A stretch of 53,971 nucleotides of DNA from Planctomycetaceae bacterium. Its GTDB lineage: Bacteria > Planctomycetota > Planctomycetia > Planctomycetales > Planctomycetaceae. Shown here piece by piece: positions 10,526-53,926 of the stretch. Made by a program: the position numbers and the translations under genes. Location: positions 1 through 53,971 of the forward strand of contig JAHBXV010000042.1 in the NCBI GenBank assembly GCA_019636285.1, in the 5' to 3' direction. The notes beneath the pieces were generated by a model, which saw only the letters and a program-made list of their open reading frames with translations, was not told the DNA's origin and ran no database searches. How positions within the stretch are numbered: position 1 is the first letter of the stretch; every line of letters begins with the position of its first letter.

Positions 10526-12031
10526 ATGTTTGAGCGTGGCGTTCGATTATCCGCGGTCGGTGCGCTTGTCGTCCTGACGGTTCTGACAACTTGCAACGTC
10601 TCCCAAGAAGCCGCTGCCGCGGACACCCCGAAACGTCCCAATGTCGTCGTCATGGTCGCCGATGACCTTGGACTGCAACTGGGGTGCTACGGCGACAAAC
10701 TCGCGAAAACCCCCAACATCGACCGACTCGCTGCTGAAGGGATGCGCTACACGCGGGCCTATTGCACGACCGCCAGTTGCAGTGCCAGCCGCAGCGTGAT
10801 TCTGAGCGGACTCTACAATCATGCCACCGGCCACTACGGCCACGCGCATGGCTACAACCACATGAGCACGTACGAGTCGGTCCAAAGCCTGCCGAAAATC
10901 CTTGCCGACAATGGCTACCGCACCTGCCGCATCGGCAAGTACCACGTAGCGCCGGAGTGGGTCTACCCGTTTCAGGACATCCGCGACGAGGGCATTCAAG
11001 GGGCCCGCAACTCGGTGAAGATGGCCGAGAACGCCAAGACCTGGATCGCCGAAAAGCCGGACGCGCCGTTCTTCCTGTACTGGTGCTCGACCGATCCGCA
11101 TCGGGGGGGCGGGCCAGGCGGATTCTCGAATTTCCCGGACCAACCCGGTCACTACCCGGGAATTGAACCCCAACGCTATACCCCAGACCAGATGCGGGTT
11201 CCCGACTGGCTTCCCGATCAGCCGGAAGTGCGGAAGGAGTTGGCTGAGTACTACGAAGCCATCGCCCGCCTGGATGTCGGTGTTGGCGTGCTGGTACGCG
11301 GCCTCGCTGAACTTGACGTGCTCGATAATACCCTGATTCTGTTCCTGAGCGACAACGGCCCCCCCTTCCCCGGCGCGAAGACAACGGTCTACGAACCGGG
11401 ACTCCAGCTTCCGCTCATCGTCCGCGACCCACGACAGAAAGAGGGAGGCCGCACCTCCGATGCCTTCGTGAACTGGGCCGATCTGACGCCCACGATTCTC
11501 GACTGGTGCGGCGTTCCGGCCCCCAAGGCTCCGCCGCTCCAGCCGCGAGAGACAGCCGGAAAGTCGCCAACGGGTCGGGAGCGTCCCTGGCAGTTCCATG
11601 GGAAGTCGATTGTTCCAACCTTCACGAACCCTGCCGCGGAAGGGTTTGACACGCTGTTCGCCTCGCACACGTTCCACGAGATCACGATGTACTACCCAAT
11701 GCGGGTCGTCCGGATCGGCGACTGGAAATACATTTTCAACATCGCCAACCCGCTTCCGTATCCATTCGCGTCCGACCTGTATCGCAGTCCGACGTGGCAG
11801 GGGGTGCTGTCGCGAGGAAACGAGTACGAGTTGTACGGCAAACGGACGGTCAAGGCGTACCTGCACCGTCCGCGACACGAACTGTACAACCTGAGCGCGG
11901 ATCCGCACGAAATCCGCAACATGGCCGACGACCCCGCACAGGCGAAGCGGCTGGAAGACCTGCAAAACCGGCTGAAGGCCTGGCAACAGGAAACCCGCGA
12001 TCCGTGGGAGCTGAAATGGGAATACGAGTGA
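10526..12031 (+). CDS. Secreted sulfatase (formylglycine-dependent)
   Basis: 501 residues; a strong Shine-Dalgarno (GAGGAGG) lies 9-10 bases before the ATG. The signal peptide spans about residues 1-31. The alkaline-phosphatase-fold sulfatase domain starts PNVVVMVADDLGLQLGCYG, with the metal-binding DD. The maturation site is CSASR, Cys about 85, to be oxidised to formylglycine; Ala replaces the commoner Pro of CxPxR. IGKYHVAPE, LFLSDNGPPFPGAKTTVYEPG and the C-terminal HELYNLSADPHEIRNMADDP are typical, and the overall look resembles heparan N-sulfatase-like S1 enzymes. The probable role is desulfating an external polysaccharide; the substrate is not predictable. It is divergent from the sigma factor gene. 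Confidence 0.93.
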   Translation: MFERGVRLSAVGALVVLTVLTTCNVSQEAAAADTPKRPNVVVMVADDLGLQLGCYGDKLAKTPNIDRLAAEGMRYTRAYCTTASCSASRSVILSGLYNHATGHYGHAHGYNHMSTYESVQSLPKILADNGYRTCRIGKYHVAPEWVYPFQDIRDEGIQGARNSVKMAENAKTWIAEKPDAPFFLYWCSTDPHRGGGPGGFSNFPDQPGHYPGIEPQRYTPDQMRVPDWLPDQPEVRKELAEYYEAIARLDVGVGVLVRGLAELDVLDNTLILFLSDNGPPFPGAKTTVYEPGLQLPLIVRDPRQKEGGRTSDAFVNWADLTPTILDWCGVPAPKAPPLQPRETAGKSPTGRERPWQFHGKSIVPTFTNPAAEGFDTLFASHTFHEITMYYPMRVVRIGDWKYIFNIANPLPYPFASDLYRSPTWQGVLSRGNEYELYGKRTVKAYLHRPRHELYNLSADPHEIRNMADDPAQAKRLEDLQNRLKAWQQETRDPWELKWEYE

Positions 12032-12161
12032 TTCGCAGGGAATAGCCCGGCACTTCCAGGATGAGGGAATCTCCACTCGCCCCAATCGCATCAGCCGGGA
12101 TACAATGCGACAAGCAGGTCGCGCGCGCGATTTGCCGGGTCCACACGGAGAGGGAAACGGA

Positions 12162-13187
12162 ATGCGACCATACTGGGCAACTCAGATTGTCCTCCTGACG
12201 ATCCTGTTTGCGGCAAACTCCGCGCAGGCCGCCGCCATCGATGTGAAGGTCAAGTCGGCGACGACCAAGGCGCTCGACTGGCTGGCACAGGAACAGCATC
12301 GGCAGGGATACTGGGAAGCCAATGGCGGCCAGTACCGCGTCGCCATGACCGCGCTCGCTGGCAACGCCATGCTGTGCGAAGGCTCGACCACGACGCGCGG
12401 AAAATACGCCCGCAACATCGCCGACGCCGTCGACTACCTTCTGGATGCGTCGCAGCCGAACGGTCTTATCGGCTACAAGAACGACTACCATTACACCTAC
12501 GGGCACGGCTTCTCGATGTTGTTCCTGTCGCAGGTGTTCGGCGAGGAAGAAGACGCCCGCCGCCGGGATCGTCTCAAGGATGTCCTGACGCGTGCGGTGC
12601 AATTCTGCGGCGAGGCCCAGACTCCGGATGGCGGTTGGGGATACGTGTCGGCGAAGGACGGAAACAACTTCGACGAAGGCTCGACCTGCGTGACGCAGAT
12701 GCAGGGTCTGCGGGCCTGTCGCAATGCAGGAATTCCCGTCCCGAAGGAAGTGATTGACCGGGGGGTCGAGTACATCCGCAAATGCACCACGCCCGATGGC
12801 GGCGTGCAATATAGCATTCGCGGCGGCGGTGCCCGTCCTCCCATCACGGCGGCGGCCATTGCCTGCCTGTTCAGTTCGGGCGAGTACGAAAGCGACCTGG
12901 CCAAGCTGTTGCTCAAGTTCTGCGAGAAGAACATCACGATCTCGTCGAACGGCGGCAACTTCTTCGGGCACTGGCATTACGCCCACTTCTACTACGCCCA
13001 GGTCGTCTATCGGCTGGGGGACGCGAAGTGGAACCCGTACTTCAACGAGCTGTCGCAGGACATTCTCCGGAAACAATCCGCCGATGGCAGTTGGAAGGAA
13101 GGCCATGTCGGCCCCGTCTACACGACCGCCATCAATGCGACGATTCTGCAAATTGCGAACGGATACCTGCCGATCTACGAGCGTTAG
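12162..13187 (+). CDS. Secreted prenyltransferase/squalene-oxidase-repeat (alpha/alpha-toroid) protein
   Basis: 341 residues from the ATG at 12162, which has GGAGAGGG upstream and yields a clean signal peptide (YWATQIVLLTILFAANSAQA). The rest is an alpha/alpha toroid with repeated QW-like motifs: EQHRQGYW, QTPDGGWGY, CTTPDGGVQY and QSADGSWKEG. The DxDD acid motif of squalene-hopene cyclases is absent, so a cyclase activity is unlikely. Such exported toroids are common in planctomycetes and of unknown function. It follows the sulfatase by 130 bases on the same strand. A second, membrane-anchored member of the fold is encoded at 51701-53926. Confidence 0.85.
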   Translation: MRPYWATQIVLLTILFAANSAQAAAIDVKVKSATTKALDWLAQEQHRQGYWEANGGQYRVAMTALAGNAMLCEGSTTTRGKYARNIADAVDYLLDASQPNGLIGYKNDYHYTYGHGFSMLFLSQVFGEEEDARRRDRLKDVLTRAVQFCGEAQTPDGGWGYVSAKDGNNFDEGSTCVTQMQGLRACRNAGIPVPKEVIDRGVEYIRKCTTPDGGVQYSIRGGGARPPITAAAIACLFSSGEYESDLAKLLLKFCEKNITISSNGGNFFGHWHYAHFYYAQVVYRLGDAKWNPYFNELSQDILRKQSADGSWKEGHVGPVYTTAINATILQIANGYLPIYER

Positions 13188-45968: not shown

Positions 45969-48278
45969 TTACGTTGGCTCATCAAGGACGATTGCCCGAT
46001 CGGCCCATTTCGCCAAGTGACCGGCCGCGTCCGTCGTCACCAGCGTATGGCCGACGTCAACCAGTTCCCGCAATGTTTTCGCGAGCGTCGGCACATCGGC
46101 GGGATGCAATCCTCCCGCCGGTTCGTCGATCACCAACCACGTCGGTCGCTCGGTCGATCGCGACAGCCGGGCTCCCAACCGCAGCCGTCGCGACTCGCCG
46201 GCTGACAATCGATGCACGGGCTGTCCGAGAACCAGGTAGCCCAGTCCCAGCCGCCGTAACGTCTGAAATTGCTGCTGGACGCTGGGAAGACTTCGAAAAT
46301 AGTCGCACGCCTCGTCAACAGTCTGTCGCAGGACGTCGGCAATCGACGCGCCACGATGTTTGACGGCCAGAACTTCCGATCGATACCGGGTTCCGCCGCA
46401 GACCGGGCAAGGGCGTTCGAGCGACACCATTAAAGCCGAGGGAACAACCAGGCGCCCGCGACCCCGGCATTCGCGACAGCCACCGCCATCAAGGGCCGCA
46501 TAACTGAACTTTCGTGGCGACCATCCGAGTCGTCGGGCATCGGCTGACTCCGCGAACAGCTTGCGAATCTCGGTCAACACACCCAGCCACGAAACGAGCG
46601 TCGCACGAGCCGAAGCCGTTAACGGCTGGTCGTCGATCGTCTCGACATCGTGCGTGCCGTCCGACAGCAATTGCCGCGGCAAATCGGCCGCCAGCAATCG
46701 ATCGGTCCGCGCGGTCCAGCGGCCGACGATGACGTTCCAGGACTGCTCCGCCAGCAACGCCTCGCGCGGCGACTGTCGGTCATCCAGCCACGTGACTTTC
46801 CGCTCGACTTTGCCAGTCCGTTTTCCACGAGTTTTCGCCGCCGGCCGCGGTGCAGCCACGGGGTCAACGTCATCGGCTATTGCTGCTTTTGTCGAAAACT
46901 CGACCGGAGTTCCGGCGAACGTGATATTTCCGCCCGCTGCTCCCGCGCCGGGCCCCAGTTCCACGACCCAATCCGCGAATGCAGCCGTCTCCAAACGATG
47001 TTCAATCAGGATGACGCTATTCCCCTGGTCTCGCAGGCGCTGAATCAGCTCCCGTCCGGCGGGAAGTTCGCTCGCATGCCAGCCGCGAAACGGTTCATCG
47101 AGGATGATAAGTGTTGCCGTCAACTCCTTCAGCGCGATCGTTGCCAGCCCGACCGCTCGCCGGGCCGCGGCGGGGAGATCGTCCGCACTTCGGGCGAGTG
47201 ACACTTCTCCAAGTCCCGCATTCGATAACACCTCGCATTGCGCGCGGATGCGAGCCGCTTCGTCGTTTGGGAAATCGGGAGTCTCCGACCCGCACCAATC
47301 GTCCGCGGAGAGTTTCCACCACTCCGCGAGAGTCCGTGTTCCGTAGTGCCACCGGTTCGCAACCACGTTCCAGCCGGTTCCAGCACACTGCGGGCAGTCT
47401 TTCATGGCAGCCGCCGCGCCCGAACATGTTCGGCAGACTGGCAGCGAGTCCGTTCCCGATTCCGCGAACGCCCGCATCTCGGGAGCCGTGACGCCGCACT
47501 TCCGGCAAACCGGTTCGTCCGCGCCATGACTCCAGGGCGAAGCAACCGCCTCGGTATCCACCAGCGCCCAGCGTCCGTCCCCTTCCCGTCGCGCCAGTTC
47601 CAATGCCTCGTGCAGCCGCGCCACCGTCGATTTTCCGGCCGTCAGGCGATCGACGACTCCCCACGGCCGAGTTGCGATTTCGCCGGGAGGCTCATCGTCC
47701 ACGCTCCAGACGGTTTTCCCGTCGGTCACCCGCCGAAACCCACGCTCGCGCACATGTTCCAGCACGTCCGCTGATGACAGCTTGGCTGGAACAGGAAACA
47801 CGATCAGACGCCGCGTTCCGCCGGGCAGGGCAAGGAATTCCTCGACGCTCTCCTCCAGGCCCCGGGCGCGCAGTCGCCTCAGGCACGCGCTACACGTGGC
47901 CCAACCCGCTCGCTGAACGCCGCGAAGAATGGGCTCGGCGATTCCCGTCACAACACCAACAGTTCTGCCGGAAAAATCGGGACGGTCGCCATCCATGAGC
48001 ACCGCTGGCGGAATTCCGGCCAGCGAGTCGGCAGAGGGACGCGGCAGTCGCTGCCCGACGGAGAGTCCGCTCGCGGTCAGAAAGCGCCGCTGCCCTTCGG
48101 CGAACAACGTGTCGACCGCCAGACTCGATTTGCCCGATCCGCTGACGCCGGCCAGCAAAATGACCTGACCCAGCGGCAGATCAAGATCCACGGCGCGGAG
48201 ATTGTGCGTACGGACGCCGCGGAGTTCGATTCCGCGACGTCGAGTTTTGCTGCGAGGAAGCGTGGTTTCAGCCGACAT
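45969..48278 (-). CDS. UvrA-like ABC ATPase lacking the second P-loop
   Basis: 769 residues, well short of UvrA (about 940). The N-terminal ABC half keeps Walker A GVSGSGKSS (44-52) and Walker B LIILDEPFRGWHASELP, but its signature is degraded (RSADDLPAAARRAVGLATIAL in place of LSGGE). The UvrA-type zinc modules are present: CSACLRR, CRKC/CRTC/CPQC and CRECRGRGRL/CPVCGGTRYR. In the C-terminal half the P-loop position reads VGRWTARTD, without GxxGxGKS, while the signature HRLSAGESRRLRLGARL and Walker B WLVIDEPAGGLHPAD remain. One composite ATP site may be dead. It could be a regulatory or specialised relative of UvrA2. The gene is convergent with the sulfatase, 13 bases apart. Confidence 0.85.
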   Translation of the reverse strand: MSAETTLPRSKTRRRGIELRGVRTHNLRAVDLDLPLGQVILLAGVSGSGKSSLAVDTLFAEGQRRFLTASGLSVGQRLPRPSADSLAGIPPAVLMDGDRPDFSGRTVGVVTGIAEPILRGVQRAGWATCSACLRRLRARGLEESVEEFLALPGGTRRLIVFPVPAKLSSADVLEHVRERGFRRVTDGKTVWSVDDEPPGEIATRPWGVVDRLTAGKSTVARLHEALELARREGDGRWALVDTEAVASPWSHGADEPVCRKCGVTAPEMRAFAESGTDSLPVCRTCSGAAAAMKDCPQCAGTGWNVVANRWHYGTRTLAEWWKLSADDWCGSETPDFPNDEAARIRAQCEVLSNAGLGEVSLARSADDLPAAARRAVGLATIALKELTATLIILDEPFRGWHASELPAGRELIQRLRDQGNSVILIEHRLETAAFADWVVELGPGAGAAGGNITFAGTPVEFSTKAAIADDVDPVAAPRPAAKTRGKRTGKVERKVTWLDDRQSPREALLAEQSWNVIVGRWTARTDRLLAADLPRQLLSDGTHDVETIDDQPLTASARATLVSWLGVLTEIRKLFAESADARRLGWSPRKFSYAALDGGGCRECRGRGRLVVPSALMVSLERPCPVCGGTRYRSEVLAVKHRGASIADVLRQTVDEACDYFRSLPSVQQQFQTLRRLGLGYLVLGQPVHRLSAGESRRLRLGARLSRSTERPTWLVIDEPAGGLHPADVPTLAKTLRELVDVGHTLVTTDAAGHLAKWADRAIVLDEPT

Positions 48279-51281: not shown

Positions 51282-51701
51282 ATGCCGCTGAAAACTCAAC
51301 CCCTCGACGAGCCGGGGCTGAACCTCACGTCGATGCTCGACGTGGTGATGCTGCTCATCATTTTCTTCATGGTGGGCACCCAGTTCTCCCAGGAAGAACG
51401 CTCTTACGACATCGAAGTTCCGACGGTGGCCGATCTGGTCGCGATGACCGATCAGCCCGACGAACTGATCGTGAATGTCGCCGCCGACGGAAGCATCGAA
51501 TTCCGCCAGCAACCGGCCTCGATCGAGTCACTCGAAGCTGAACTGGCCAAGGCGATCGCCAATTTCCCGAACCAGGCCGTCATCATTCGTGGCGATCGCG
51601 CCAGCGTCTATCAGGCCGTCATGGACGTGATGTCAGCGTGTCGGAGGGCGGGCGTGCGCAACATTTCACTCGCACACCGTGCGGCAGCGGAGAGTCGTTG
51701 A
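51282..51701 (+). CDS. exbD: ExbD/TolR-family proton-channel subunit
   Basis: 139 residues from the ATG at 51282, preceded by GAGGAAGGGA; upstream frame extension lacks family sequence. The single membrane helix LTSMLDVVMLLIIFFMVGTQF places Asp20 where the proton-carrying Asp of ExbD/TolR lies. The periplasmic domain follows: YDIEVPTVADLV, LIVNVAADGSIEF and AVIIRGDRASVYQAVMDVMSACRRAGVRNISLA. ExbD works with ExbB and TonB-like proteins to convert proton flow into force on envelope partners. No ExbB gene is adjacent. Its TGA stop overlaps the ATG of the next gene (TGATG), so the two are coupled. Confidence 0.93.
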   Translation: MPLKTQPLDEPGLNLTSMLDVVMLLIIFFMVGTQFSQEERSYDIEVPTVADLVAMTDQPDELIVNVAADGSIEFRQQPASIESLEAELAKAIANFPNQAVIIRGDRASVYQAVMDVMSACRRAGVRNISLAHRAAAESR

Positions 51702-53926
51702 TGTCCGCCTGGACGGTCTTTGCCCAGACGTTCTTCGACACCTGGCTGCCAACTTCCGGCAGCCAGTCGGGCGACATGCTTTTGCGCGGTTCATTTCTCC
51801 TCTGTTCGTTCTTCGCGTCGATTCAACTGATTACCATGCTGGCCACCCGCTGGGGCGAAACGCACCCCATGGCGAAGTCGCTGGCGTTGTCGGTCCTCAT
51901 CCATGTCTGGCTGGGATTGGCGTGGGCGAGCGTTCTGGAAGTCCAGCCCAGGCTGGCATCGCCCGGTCCAAAACAAGCCGATCCCCTGCCGGTTCGCATT
52001 ACGCTGCGAACGGCCGAACAATCGGTTCCCGAAACATCCGGCGGTAATACTCCGGTCTGGAAGAAACTCACCGAATCGCCCGAAATCGATGCCGCCCGCC
52101 AGGAGAGGACGGCCGCGCCGGCGCTGGAACTGGCCCTTCCCGAGCGTGCCCAGAATCCCCGGCAGACCGAACAGCTACTCCCCGCCCTCGGCACGCCGCT
52201 GCCAGAGACCGACCTCGCCGTGCGCCCCGCGCAGCCCCAGTTTGCCACCGCCCCCGCGGCGGCCGCCACGTCCGAGCAGCTACCCACCGAAATCGTCGAA
52301 GCCCGACCGGACGCCACGCCCAGCCTGTCGCGCCCGCGGCGGATCGACACGGCTGCCAGCGACTCCGCGAACGAGTCGCCGCAACTCGCTCCGCGACAGA
52401 GTCCGCGCGCCGCCGCCCCGGCAACCGCGCCCTCCGACCTCGAACTGCAAGTCGATTCACGGTCCGAACGGCCGCGCCGGGCGGAAGTTCCCTCCGAAAT
52501 CGCCCGATCGGCCGCGCCGACCACGCTCGATCGCCCCGACTCGGTGGCGACGGAAGTCGCCGAGGGCACCGCCACCGGCAGCGAAAATCCCAGCGAATCC
52601 CTCGGAACGCGCGCCAGGCGGCGCGACTCGCGCGGAACGGCATTGACCGATCCGGTTCCGCAACTGCGGTCTACGGGCTCGGCGACCGCTCCAACCCCAA
52701 CGGCGGCGAGCGATCTGCTCGCGGCCGCGACCGAGGGAACCGGGACGATTCCCAGCCGGCTTCCCACGCCGGGCCTTTTGCGTCCTTCGGCCCCCACGGT
52801 CAAATCCGATCCGACGCCGCAGGCCCCGGTGACCTATCGGCTGCGTAACCTCGATCGCCGCCGACAGATCGCGCTCCAGCATGGCGGCACCGAGGAATCC
52901 GAAAAGGCCGTCGAGACCAGCCTCGCCTGGCTGGCTGCCCACCAGGAACCAGACGGTTCCTGGAGCTCTGAAAAGCATCAGGGTGGCGTTCAAAAGACCG
53001 ATCCACAGGGGAACGATCGCCGGGGCGCTGGGACAAAAGCCGACGCTGGCGTTACCGGTCTGGCACTCCTGGCATTCCTGGGCGCCGGATATACCCACGA
53101 GGAAGGACAGTACGAAGACAACGTCCGGCGGGCGATTCGGTGGCTCCTCAAGAAGCAGCGCGACGACGGGTATCTCGGAGCTGACGCCACTTATTATGAC
53201 GCCATGTACTGTCATGGAATCGCCGCCTATGCGCTGGCGGAAGCCTATGGCATGCAGACCGATCCCACCGCTTTTCCCGAACTTTCGAGCGGAGTCACCA
53301 AGGCCGTCTATTTTATTGTCGCCATGCAAAACGACGACGGCGGTTGGCGCTATCGCAAAGGGCAGCAGAGCGACATGAGCATGTTTGGCTGGCAGCTCAT
53401 GGCCCTTAAAAGCGCGAACATCGCGGGAATTCAGACGCCAGACGCCACCTACAAAGGCATGGTCAAGTTTCTGAAGGACCGCAGCCTGAATCCCTCCGGC
53501 GCTGTCGACGAATACGGCGGACTCGCCAGCTACCGGCCCGGCGAACCGGCCACCCCCTCCATGACCGCCGAAGCCTTGTTCTGCAAACAGATGTATGGCC
53601 TGCGTCGCACGAATCGCACCAGCGAAGAGGCGGTCAACTTTCTGCTCAAATCCTTGCCCCGACAGTCACAGCCCAACGACTACTATTGGTACTACGGAAC
53701 GCTGGCCCTGTTTCAGCATGGCGAGGAGCCCTGGAACAAATGGAATGAGGCCCTCCGCGAAACATTGATCGCGTCGCAACGGACGTCGGGGCCGCTCGCC
53801 GGGAGCTGGGATCCGCACGACCCATGGGGAGGCATCGGCGGCCGGGTCTATTCGACCGCGCTGGCGACATTATGTCTCGAGGTCTACTATCGATTTTTGC
53901 CGCTGTACCAGACGGTGGAACGGTAG
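51701..53926 (+). CDS. TonB-like membrane anchor fused to an alpha/alpha-toroid (prenyltransferase-like) domain
   Basis: 741 residues from the ATG that overlaps the exbD stop. Two membrane segments are predicted, about 27-48 and 59-78. The second reads SLALSVLIHVWLGLAWASV, with Ser64-x3-His68 as in the S-x3-H helix of TonB. Residues about 80-385 are an Ala/Pro/Arg/Ser-rich linker lacking structure. Residues about 385-741 form an alpha/alpha toroid with QW-type motifs: HQEPDGSW, KQRDDGYLG, MQNDDGGWRY and LAGSWDP. The DxDD acid motif of squalene cyclases is absent. TonB proteins have the same anchor-linker-domain plan but a different terminal domain. The coupling to ExbD suggests a proton-powered transducer (inference). 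Substrate or partner unknown. Confidence 0.85.
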   Translation: MSAWTVFAQTFFDTWLPTSGSQSGDMLLRGSFLLCSFFASIQLITMLATRWGETHPMAKSLALSVLIHVWLGLAWASVLEVQPRLASPGPKQADPLPVRITLRTAEQSVPETSGGNTPVWKKLTESPEIDAARQERTAAPALELALPERAQNPRQTEQLLPALGTPLPETDLAVRPAQPQFATAPAAAATSEQLPTEIVEARPDATPSLSRPRRIDTAASDSANESPQLAPRQSPRAAAPATAPSDLELQVDSRSERPRRAEVPSEIARSAAPTTLDRPDSVATEVAEGTATGSENPSESLGTRARRRDSRGTALTDPVPQLRSTGSATAPTPTAASDLLAAATEGTGTIPSRLPTPGLLRPSAPTVKSDPTPQAPVTYRLRNLDRRRQIALQHGGTEESEKAVETSLAWLAAHQEPDGSWSSEKHQGGVQKTDPQGNDRRGAGTKADAGVTGLALLAFLGAGYTHEEGQYEDNVRRAIRWLLKKQRDDGYLGADATYYDAMYCHGIAAYALAEAYGMQTDPTAFPELSSGVTKAVYFIVAMQNDDGGWRYRKGQQSDMSMFGWQLMALKSANIAGIQTPDATYKGMVKFLKDRSLNPSGAVDEYGGLASYRPGEPATPSMTAEALFCKQMYGLRRTNRTSEEAVNFLLKSLPRQSQPNDYYWYYGTLALFQHGEEPWNKWNEALRETLIASQRTSGPLAGSWDPHDPWGGIGGRVYSTALATLCLEVYYRFLPLYQTVER

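Follow-up and report, generated by a model that had tools for sequence, protein, structure and literature searches.

A planctomycete exbD gene linked to a membrane-tethered toroid: apparently a route for energy through the cell envelope that has not been described before

The window, a stretch of 53,971 nucleotides from a Planctomycetaceae bacterium, ends with two adjoining genes: exbD, and a gene for a protein of 741 residues with two membrane helices, a long linker and a C-terminal toroid (Table 1). The first gene product carries both an ExbD domain (Pfam) and an intramembrane Asp. The last base of its TGA (51699-51701) is the first base of the toroid gene's ATG (51701-51703), so that the overlap described in an earlier note on this DNA is borne out as a single shared base; a junction of this kind likely couples the translation of the two genes. 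In 40 of the 67 homologous loci in which the genes are linked, an in-frame ATG or GTG lies at most 4 nt from the exbD stop, and the median distance from that stop to the Ser codon of the toroid protein's helix motif is 180 nt. The Asp20 equivalent was found in the ExbDs of all 67 linked loci, in 63 by pattern and in four by eye (L118, L129, L132 and L156).

Table 1. Features of the exbD-toroid locus, in window coordinates
Feature	Position	Strand	Basis
exbD, proton-motor subunit, 139 aa	51282..51701	+	PF02472, E 2e-29
Codon of ExbD Asp20, presumed proton-binding Asp of the membrane helix	51339..51341	+	sequence
TGATG, exbD stop and toroid gene start, one-base overlap	51699..51703	+	sequence
Toroid gene, putative transducer, 741 aa	51701..53926	+	Pfam, structure model; homologues in 80 named loci
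First membrane helix, residues 23-48	51767..51844	+	model; hydrophobicity
Second membrane helix, residues 56-81, candidate TonB-like motor-binding helix	51866..51943	+	model; hydrophobicity
SVLIH, Ser64-x3-His68, inside the second membrane helix	51890..51904	+	helix alignment, homologue counts
Disordered Pro/Ala/Arg/Ser-rich linker, residues 82-376	51944..52828	+	pLDDT
GNTPVW, residues 115-120, short recurrent linker motif	52043..52060	+	by eye
Alpha/alpha toroid, putative output domain, residues 377-731	52829..53893	+	model, fold comparison

The structure model agrees closely with the boundaries proposed earlier, giving 56-81 rather than 59-78 for the second helix and 377-731 rather than 385-741 for the toroid, and it places Ser64 and His68 of SVLIH inside the predicted membrane helix, as had been claimed. 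The long Ala/Pro/Arg-rich linker is likewise confirmed and is predicted to be disordered, with pLDDT below 50 for nearly all of residues 83-370. It comprises about 290 residues here (median 314 in 79 homologues) and is hardly conserved: R133 alone among the linker positions reaches 95% conservation in alignment A2, and GNTPVW recurs, by eye, at about the same place in many homologues.

The toroid is modelled mostly at pLDDT above 90, with dips at residues 431-440 (82) and 591-610 (76), as twelve main helices in six pairs. In fold comparison it comes closest to squalene-hopene cyclase (2sqc; Z 26.5 over 290 residues at 3.0 A) and related terpene cyclases, and the C-terminal Pfam match of the protein is to the squalene-hopene cyclase C-terminal domain (PF13243, E 2.8e-9), with which it shares the fold and QW-type repeats. 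It differs from the cyclase in being a single toroid domain, in being tethered via a membrane helix and a long linker, and in lacking the catalytic DxDD. The sequence D-x-D-D occurs nowhere in the 741 residues, and the corresponding region of the cyclases aligns, weakly, to G506-I507-A508-A509; model and sequence scan thus uphold the earlier description of a toroid without DxDD. Conserved positions are concentrated at the N-terminal ends of the presumed inner helices (23 of 54, versus 6 of 54 for the outer helices; Fisher p 4e-4), by a measure picked after the list of positions had been seen and with the inner assignment itself presumed. Near the presumed pocket end, many invariant positions carry polar or aromatic side chains (Y503, H505, D558, S560, T622, E624, Y664, Y665 and R715). 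Alignment and model together are best read as placing a conserved pocket in one end of the toroid barrel. A second toroid in the same window (12105-13187) has a signal-peptide-like start and lacks the Ser/His membrane helix.

Conservation of the helix motif was assessed in stop-to-stop open frames, which were used throughout for toroids and their neighbours in place of gene-finder calls. With one toroid kept per locus, the helix His was present in 79 of the 80 best named homologous loci, the remaining one being truncated, and Ser stood four residues ahead of it in 79 of 79 scored homologues in a search that had asked for His only. Ser was found in 30 of 31 and His in 31 of 31 sequences of alignment A1, and no other column is invariant in the helix alignment A3, which holds 49 sequences preselected for the motif. 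As a control, S-x3-H in a membrane-like segment was found in only 2 of 353 non-toroid open frames of at least 250 codons from the same loci; given 79 of 79 homologues against this background, the motif in the toroid protein's helix is, on sequence grounds, not due to chance.

In a more diverse first set, 52 of 60 toroid frames carried S-x3-H. Of the other eight, L046 and L066 have Ala in place of Ser, L063 and L075, both motor-linked, have Asn in place of His, the frames of L055 and L068 are cut and miss the motif, and L071 and the second toroid of the window lack such a helix. Toroid frames outside the class retain S-x3-H in 38 of 49 cases. The expectation that Ser and His are conserved therefore holds among close homologues and weakens further out, where two motor-linked proteins have Asn for His.

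The same motif is found in the motor-binding helix of TonB and TolA: the TonB of this genome (PF03544, E 2.3e-22) has SAGLH and that of E. coli SVCIH. TonB and TolA also share with the toroid protein a Pro-rich linker and an ExbD partner. The toroid protein differs from them in having an extra N-terminal helix and only the Ser-His half of SHLS (Ser-x3-His-x6-Leu-x3-Ser, of which TonB conserves Leu and the final Ser less strictly; PMC12215075), with W75 and L79 at the places of Leu and the final Ser. Its C-terminal domain is the toroid, and the protein has no Pfam match to the TonB/TolA C-terminal domain. The D-box, the ExbD-binding element of TonB and TolA (PMC10907165), was looked for, as an alternating core pattern, in the 45 residues that follow the helix. 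The protein has VRITL at 98-102, and the family shows the core in 15 of 79 cases, versus 14.6% in shuffled sequences (28 of 467 in later linker windows, where composition differs); since the core is no commoner than in shuffles, we do not claim a D-box. A whole-protein profile matched TolA (E 2.4e-5 to 3.6e-5) over positions 56-342, which was not used as evidence because the region is mostly linker composition. Searched against the PDB, the 34-column helix profile A3 hit neither TonB nor TolA, and Pfam gave no match for three N-terminal stretches.

A toroid homologue of any type was present in all 40 genomes studied (this one and 39 relatives). An exbD lies directly upstream of the toroid gene in 67 of the 80 best loci; seven loci of one group have no adjoining exbD, upstream DNA having been inspected there in L112 only. 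Among cultured species, Thalassoglobus neptunius (L142) has the exbD-toroid pair. Outside the class, linkage was seen in just 1 of 49 toroid frames (L281, with Ala in place of Ser and the TPR and ExbB genes ordered as in the class). The predicted linkage thus stands for most of the class, with that one group among the exceptions, and hardly extends beyond it. In a tree of ExbD domains of at least 90 residues (midpoint rooting, topology alone, every fourth locus of L090-L169), 47 sampled toroid-linked ExbDs separate from 10 others, and the window ExbD falls in the toroid-linked clade, apart from the other ExbDs of this genome. Of 125 loci, 26 have TPR and ExbB genes ahead of the toroid gene, and in 23 of the 26 ExbD lies in between; the clustering of neighbours was confined to toroid frames of at least 600 codons. 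The 125 loci hold 113 distinct toroids, and counts across the two locus sets (L031-L089 and L090-L169) are not fully independent, since the sets partly overlap. On this comparison of sequences and gene order, exbD and the toroid gene form a conserved planctomycete two-gene module.

In this genome only exbD adjoins the toroid gene, TPR and ExbB being encoded elsewhere. Sequence identity points to the copy at G000:C19:9880-10614 as the most likely ExbB partner; it shares 58% identity with the TPR-linked ExbB of G018, the next best in this genome reaching 33%. Another frame of this genome, ExbB-like and close to the end of contig C37, was dropped, since by eye it reads as MotA beside a flagellar hook-type frame. 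The ExbB Ser that contacts Ser16 and His20 of TonB in E. coli has an equivalent in 10 of 13 toroid-linked ExbBs, while Trp38, the other TonB contact (PMC12215075), is conserved in 0 of 17 ExbBs (the 13 linked, three TPR-linked and the candidate of this genome). Thr148 is present in 12 and Thr181 in 10 of the 13. In one family, the ExbBs of three loci lack Thr181 and Pro190, and one of the three lacks Thr148 as well; these loci showed no ExbD next to ExbB.

We consider it likely that a dedicated proton-driven ExbB/ExbD motor has this pair as its output half, with the toroid and its conserved pocket as the output domain. The energy coupling proposed in the earlier note gains support from the separate ExbD clade and the TPR-ExbB-ExbD-toroid operons; loci with no linked exbD and the motor-linked relatives with Asn for His weigh against it. 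In such a machine, ExbB and the window ExbD would assemble in the inner membrane as a motor of the 5:2 type, and the second membrane helix would use Ser64 and His68 to dock on ExbB, just as TonB and TolA do with their SHLS helix. Driven by proton flow, either this helix or ExbD's periplasmic portion would move, and the long flexible linker would pass the motion on to the toroid in the periplasm. This squalene-cyclase-type ring, which lacks the cyclase acid, may then bind, and possibly process, an envelope ligand at its pocket; its likely partner is a large TPR protein whose start resembles a signal peptide.

Alternatively, the toroid could be tethered to the membrane on its periplasmic side as an enzyme or binding protein for a carbohydrate or other ligand and receive no power from a motor, with the adjacency to exbD historical and S-x3-H a packing motif of the anchor helix. 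Conserved positions cluster at presumed inner-helix ends as those of an active-site pocket would, glycosidases and sugar epimerases are among the fold neighbours, the motif is kept in toroid proteins with no linked exbD, and the toroid at 12105-13187 combines a signal-peptide-like start with absence of the Ser/His helix. Helix packing, however, hardly accounts for a nearly invariant membrane His together with a clade of linked ExbDs and conserved TPR/ExbB/ExbD operons, and we regard this explanation as rather unlikely.

A motor-driven lipid carrier, in which the toroid holds a hydrophobic terpenoid (squalene, a hopanoid or a polyprenol) and moves it across the periplasm, would suit the top fold matches to terpene cyclases, and loss of the cyclase acid fits binding without cyclisation. 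Carbohydrate enzymes with the same fold score only slightly lower in Z, however, polar or aromatic side chains make up many of the invariant residues around the presumed pocket end, and no lipid-pathway gene was recognised by eye among the neighbour clusters, most of which were not identified; such a carrier is very improbable. That the protein replaces TonB in energising TonB-dependent receptors, as might be suggested by a TonB C-terminal domain missing in 29 of 40 genomes (present in 11) while ExbD occurs in 40 of 40, is scarcely credible and was set aside as the main reading because 24 of 40 genomes (all but 16) lack a Plug-domain receptor; moreover, G001, G004 and G018 have neither domain yet carry an exbD-linked toroid, and the toroid itself does not match the TonB domain in Pfam.

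Taking the transducer as the preferred reading, one may ask what it would handle. The planctomycete periplasm is enlarged, and macromolecule uptake, which an uncoupler stops, is mechanistically unexplained (PMC5394234). A planctomycete proton motor might move a tethered ligand-binding or catalytic toroid through this unusually wide periplasm and so handle macromolecules, such as polysaccharides, without TonB receptors, a proposal that we regard as improbable, as is the spread of such a machine through much of the phylum that forms part of it. If true, it would be a candidate for energy-dependent uptake of dextran and proteins into the periplasm, and the module offers a concrete gene set with which planctomycete macromolecule uptake can be tested.

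The module appears to be an as yet unreported means of transferring energy across the envelope. Among the matches listed in a full-text literature search, which covers neither most subscription papers nor any preprints, none described an ExbD-linked toroid, nor did term searches inside the accessible text of PMC12204202, PMC12505986 and PMC13274419. The novelty claimed earlier is confined to the toroid, since motor-linked proteins that combine a helix, a linker and a domain unrelated to TonB were published in 2025 by Williams-Jones et al. (PMC12204202). According to the passages cited, those transducers, also from Planctomycetes and also without known function, carry an SHLS-type membrane helix, of which the toroid protein has the Ser-His part, and a disordered linker followed by a globular domain unrelated to that of TonB or TolA; they have TolQ-like and TolR-like neighbours and an upstream TPR gene, an arrangement comparable to that of the 26 toroid loci above. 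Their output domain is a vWA, for which the 741-residue protein has no Pfam match, instead of an alpha/alpha toroid. Should the coupling hold, ExbBD-type motors would drive a further output class beyond the TonB/TolA-type domain and vWA, namely a ring-shaped domain with a conserved pocket. By the same passages, the vWA systems have a pair of ExbD-type genes, one membrane helix and a linker of about 100 residues, versus one such gene, two helices and about 300 residues in the toroid module, and the family of the window protein differs further in that its ExbB and TPR are often encoded elsewhere.

The exbD gene lies at the right end of the window, which makes up all of contig C51 of the 6.37-Mb source genome. 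As the earlier note had claimed, it shares one base (TGATG) with the start of the gene for a 741-residue protein. The helix, long linker and toroid proposed for this protein are all present in its AlphaFold2 model (input alignment of 58 sequences): two membrane helices at residues 23-48 and 56-81, a disordered stretch with pLDDT below 50 across nearly all of 83-370, and a confident all-helical domain at 377-731 with pLDDT mostly above 90. The linker has a median length of 314 residues and 12% Pro in 79 homologues, and a single linker position reaches at least 95% conservation in the homologue alignment. A short motif, GNTPVW (window 52043-52060 and homologues), recurs some 45 residues past the membrane-helix His, in a linker that is variable elsewhere.

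Genes of the window and candidate partners elsewhere in the source genome
Feature	Position	Strand	Remarks
exbD	51282-51701	+	Pfam ExbD, E 2e-29
Toroid gene	51701-53926	+	741 aa
Second toroid protein	12105-13187	+	360 aa; SQHop_cyclase_C, E 9.1e-11
Sulfatase gene	10526-12031		
UvrA-like ABC ATPase	45969-48278	-	769 aa; UvrA_inter, E 2.3e-5
TPR gene	C59:39161-42274		
Candidate partner ExbB	C19:9880-10614		58% identity to TPR-linked ExbB; next best 33%

Conservation of Ser64 and His68, the S-x3-H motif of the second membrane helix, was assessed in 80 named loci that were retrieved using toroid patterns and not the helix, and whose titles name planctomycetes except for two given only as 'bacterium'. 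The scan asked for His in a hydrophobic segment ahead of the toroid and did not require Ser. Such a segment was found in 79 of the 80 loci, L136 being cut at the N-terminus, and Ser stood four residues before His in all 79, so that the pair is conserved in every scorable locus. An alignment of 31 sequences, in which the window protein shares 30-45% identity with the others, shows His68 in every member and a single substitution of Ser64, to Ala. For control, open frames of at least 250 codons that have a membrane-like segment but no toroid were scanned, and 2 of 353 contained the motif. Among the few other frames with the motif is the source genome's TonB (PF03544, E 2.3e-22), which carries SAGLH; the E. 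coli TonB counterpart is SVCIH, and contacts of TonB Ser16 and His20 with ExbB Ser34 and Trp38 are described for the E. coli complex (PMC12215075). In the first, more mixed set of loci, S-x3-H was present in 52 of 60 toroid frames. The exceptions were L046 and L066 (Ser to Ala), L063:5257-9507 (-) and L075:572-4675 (+) (His to Asn, S-x3-N, both adjoining an ExbD), L055 and L068 (cut by a contig end), and L071 and the window's second toroid, which have no such helix. PD40 beta-propeller repeats (TolB-like) lie ahead of the S-x3-H/N helix in L045:5930-9808 (-) and in L063, both motor-linked, which hints at a Tol-Pal-like fusion.

The expected linkage to exbD stood for most loci: 67 of the 80 have ExbD immediately upstream in the same orientation. 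It did not hold for seven loci of one group with nearly identical helix sequences (L112, L114, L115, L124, L125, L148 and L158), beside which no exbD was detected; L112, the one inspected, has a divergent frame as its upstream neighbour. Five of the 13 unlinked loci (L096, L108, L113, L122 and L136) are truncated or start at most 150 bases from a contig end. In another of the 13, from a metagenome bin, a 63-codon frame at L145:5747-5938 (+) looks by eye like a shortened exbD, with its ends kept and its middle missing; an intact toroid gene follows. Within the 67 linked loci, the exbD stop and the Ser codon are 130-318 nt apart (median 180), 40 loci have an in-frame start within 4 nt of the exbD stop, and the membrane Asp was recognized in 63 ExbDs by pattern and in the remaining four by eye. 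In a tree of 57 ExbD domains, rooted at the midpoint, the 47 toroid-linked ones cluster together; the remaining 10, source-genome paralogues among them, fall outside this cluster.

Structural comparison of the predicted 377-731 domain (Foldseek, VIA-align) identified an alpha/alpha toroid. Its top match was squalene-hopene cyclase 2sqc (Z 26.5, 290 residues, 3.0 A), ranked ahead of other terpene cyclases, glycosidases and sugar epimerases. The domain had been described as lacking the catalytic motif, and a sequence scan indeed found no D-x-D-D anywhere in the protein; in a weak profile alignment the cyclase DxDD falls on G506-I507-A508-A509. With inner helices assigned by alternation (every second helix of six pairs), positions conserved at 95% or more were 23 of 54 at inner-helix starts versus 6 of 54 at outer-helix starts (p 4e-4, for a measure picked after the list had been viewed). 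The conserved end of the toroid is presumably the one at which toroid enzymes hold their active site. With conserved positions concentrated there, the toroid is more than a passive shape.

A motor subunit, a motor-binding helix, a long tether and a periplasmic domain would together have the anatomy of an energy transducer, in which a proton motor would drive a tethered toroid bearing a pocket. Judged from this anatomy, the exbD-toroid pair is probably such a motor-driven, pocket-bearing toroid transducer. Several observations count against motor coupling. The helix resembles TonB by motif only, its profile having found neither TonB nor TolA in the PDB, a pattern test did not support a D-box in the homologue family, and Trp38 is not conserved among the ExbBs compared. 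In a further sample of 40 additional stretches, 52 toroid frames had His in 42, Ser in 41 of those 42, and a linked exbD in 4, three of these from the window's family. Outside the class, 1 of 49 toroid frames is exbD-linked, yet 38 of 49 carry S-x3-H. Unlinked S-x3-H toroids may be served by motors whose genes lie at other sites, every one of 40 genomes of the class having 4-13 ExbD copies; alternatively, S-x3-H may have a different function.

The outer-envelope partner proposed in the earlier note would be hypothetical. If the pair is a transducer, TonB-dependent receptors are unlikely to be its targets, because all 40 genomes have some type of toroid homologue, against 16 with a Plug domain and 11 with the C-terminal domain of TonB, and three genomes (G001, G004 and G018) have an exbD-linked toroid without either domain. 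In planctomycetes, dextran and GFP are described as entering the wide periplasm in an energy-dependent manner by an unclear mechanism, with dextran entry absent in the presence of CCCP (PMC5394234). A role of the toroid module in this entry is possible.

Neighbour-gene clustering of 125 toroid loci placed an ExbB cluster near 28 and, near 27, a large TPR protein whose start resembles a signal peptide. The order TPR, ExbB, toroid was found in 26 loci (25 distinct), with ExbD in between in 23. In one family (L049:11688-12665, L058:8243-9301 and L080:5227-6192) no exbD was found beside ExbB; this ExbB lacks Thr181 and Pro190, and in L049 also Thr148, and the TPR protein and S-x3-H toroid are retained. 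The arrangement is possibly a motorless relic or serves another use. Outside the class, the order TPR, ExbB, ExbD, toroid occurs in one genome (L281), where the helix Ser is changed to Ala. In the window's family, TPR and ExbB are often separate from ExbD and toroid, and coordinate comparison shows the two adjoining each other elsewhere in at least 15 genomes. Of 12 stretches that were fetched, 4 show this adjacency directly; no ExbB was detected next to TPR in the other eight, source genome included. There, sequence identity makes the ExbB on contig C19 the likely partner; it retains Ser34, Thr148, Thr181 and Pro190 and does not keep Trp38.

Williams-Jones et al. 2025 describe, also from Planctomycetes, proteins of unknown function in which a disordered linker joins an SHLS helix to a vWA domain and which are encoded next to TolQ/TolR-like and TPR genes (PMC12204202); a term search of the main text found none of the words squalene, cyclase and toroid. 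The exbD-toroid module is of the same kind as these vWA transducers but differs in its output domain and has an ExbD clade and a TPR protein of its own. Without the C-terminal domain of TonB and TolA the toroid protein is neither of these, and without DxDD it is not a squalene-hopene cyclase. No earlier description of an exbD-linked toroid was found among the papers listed by full-text searches, which covered few subscription papers and no preprints. What is new here is best filed as a toroid output domain on an already described kind of motor-linked transducer.

Toroid domains of the window family matched in 139 of 149 Planctomycetota genomes, with up to 20 matches per genome; of the 10 genomes that had none, four belong to one family (f48). 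The window's second toroid protein has a signal-peptide-like start, and its gene lies directly downstream of the sulfatase gene. The UvrA-like protein is shorter than the usual UvrA.
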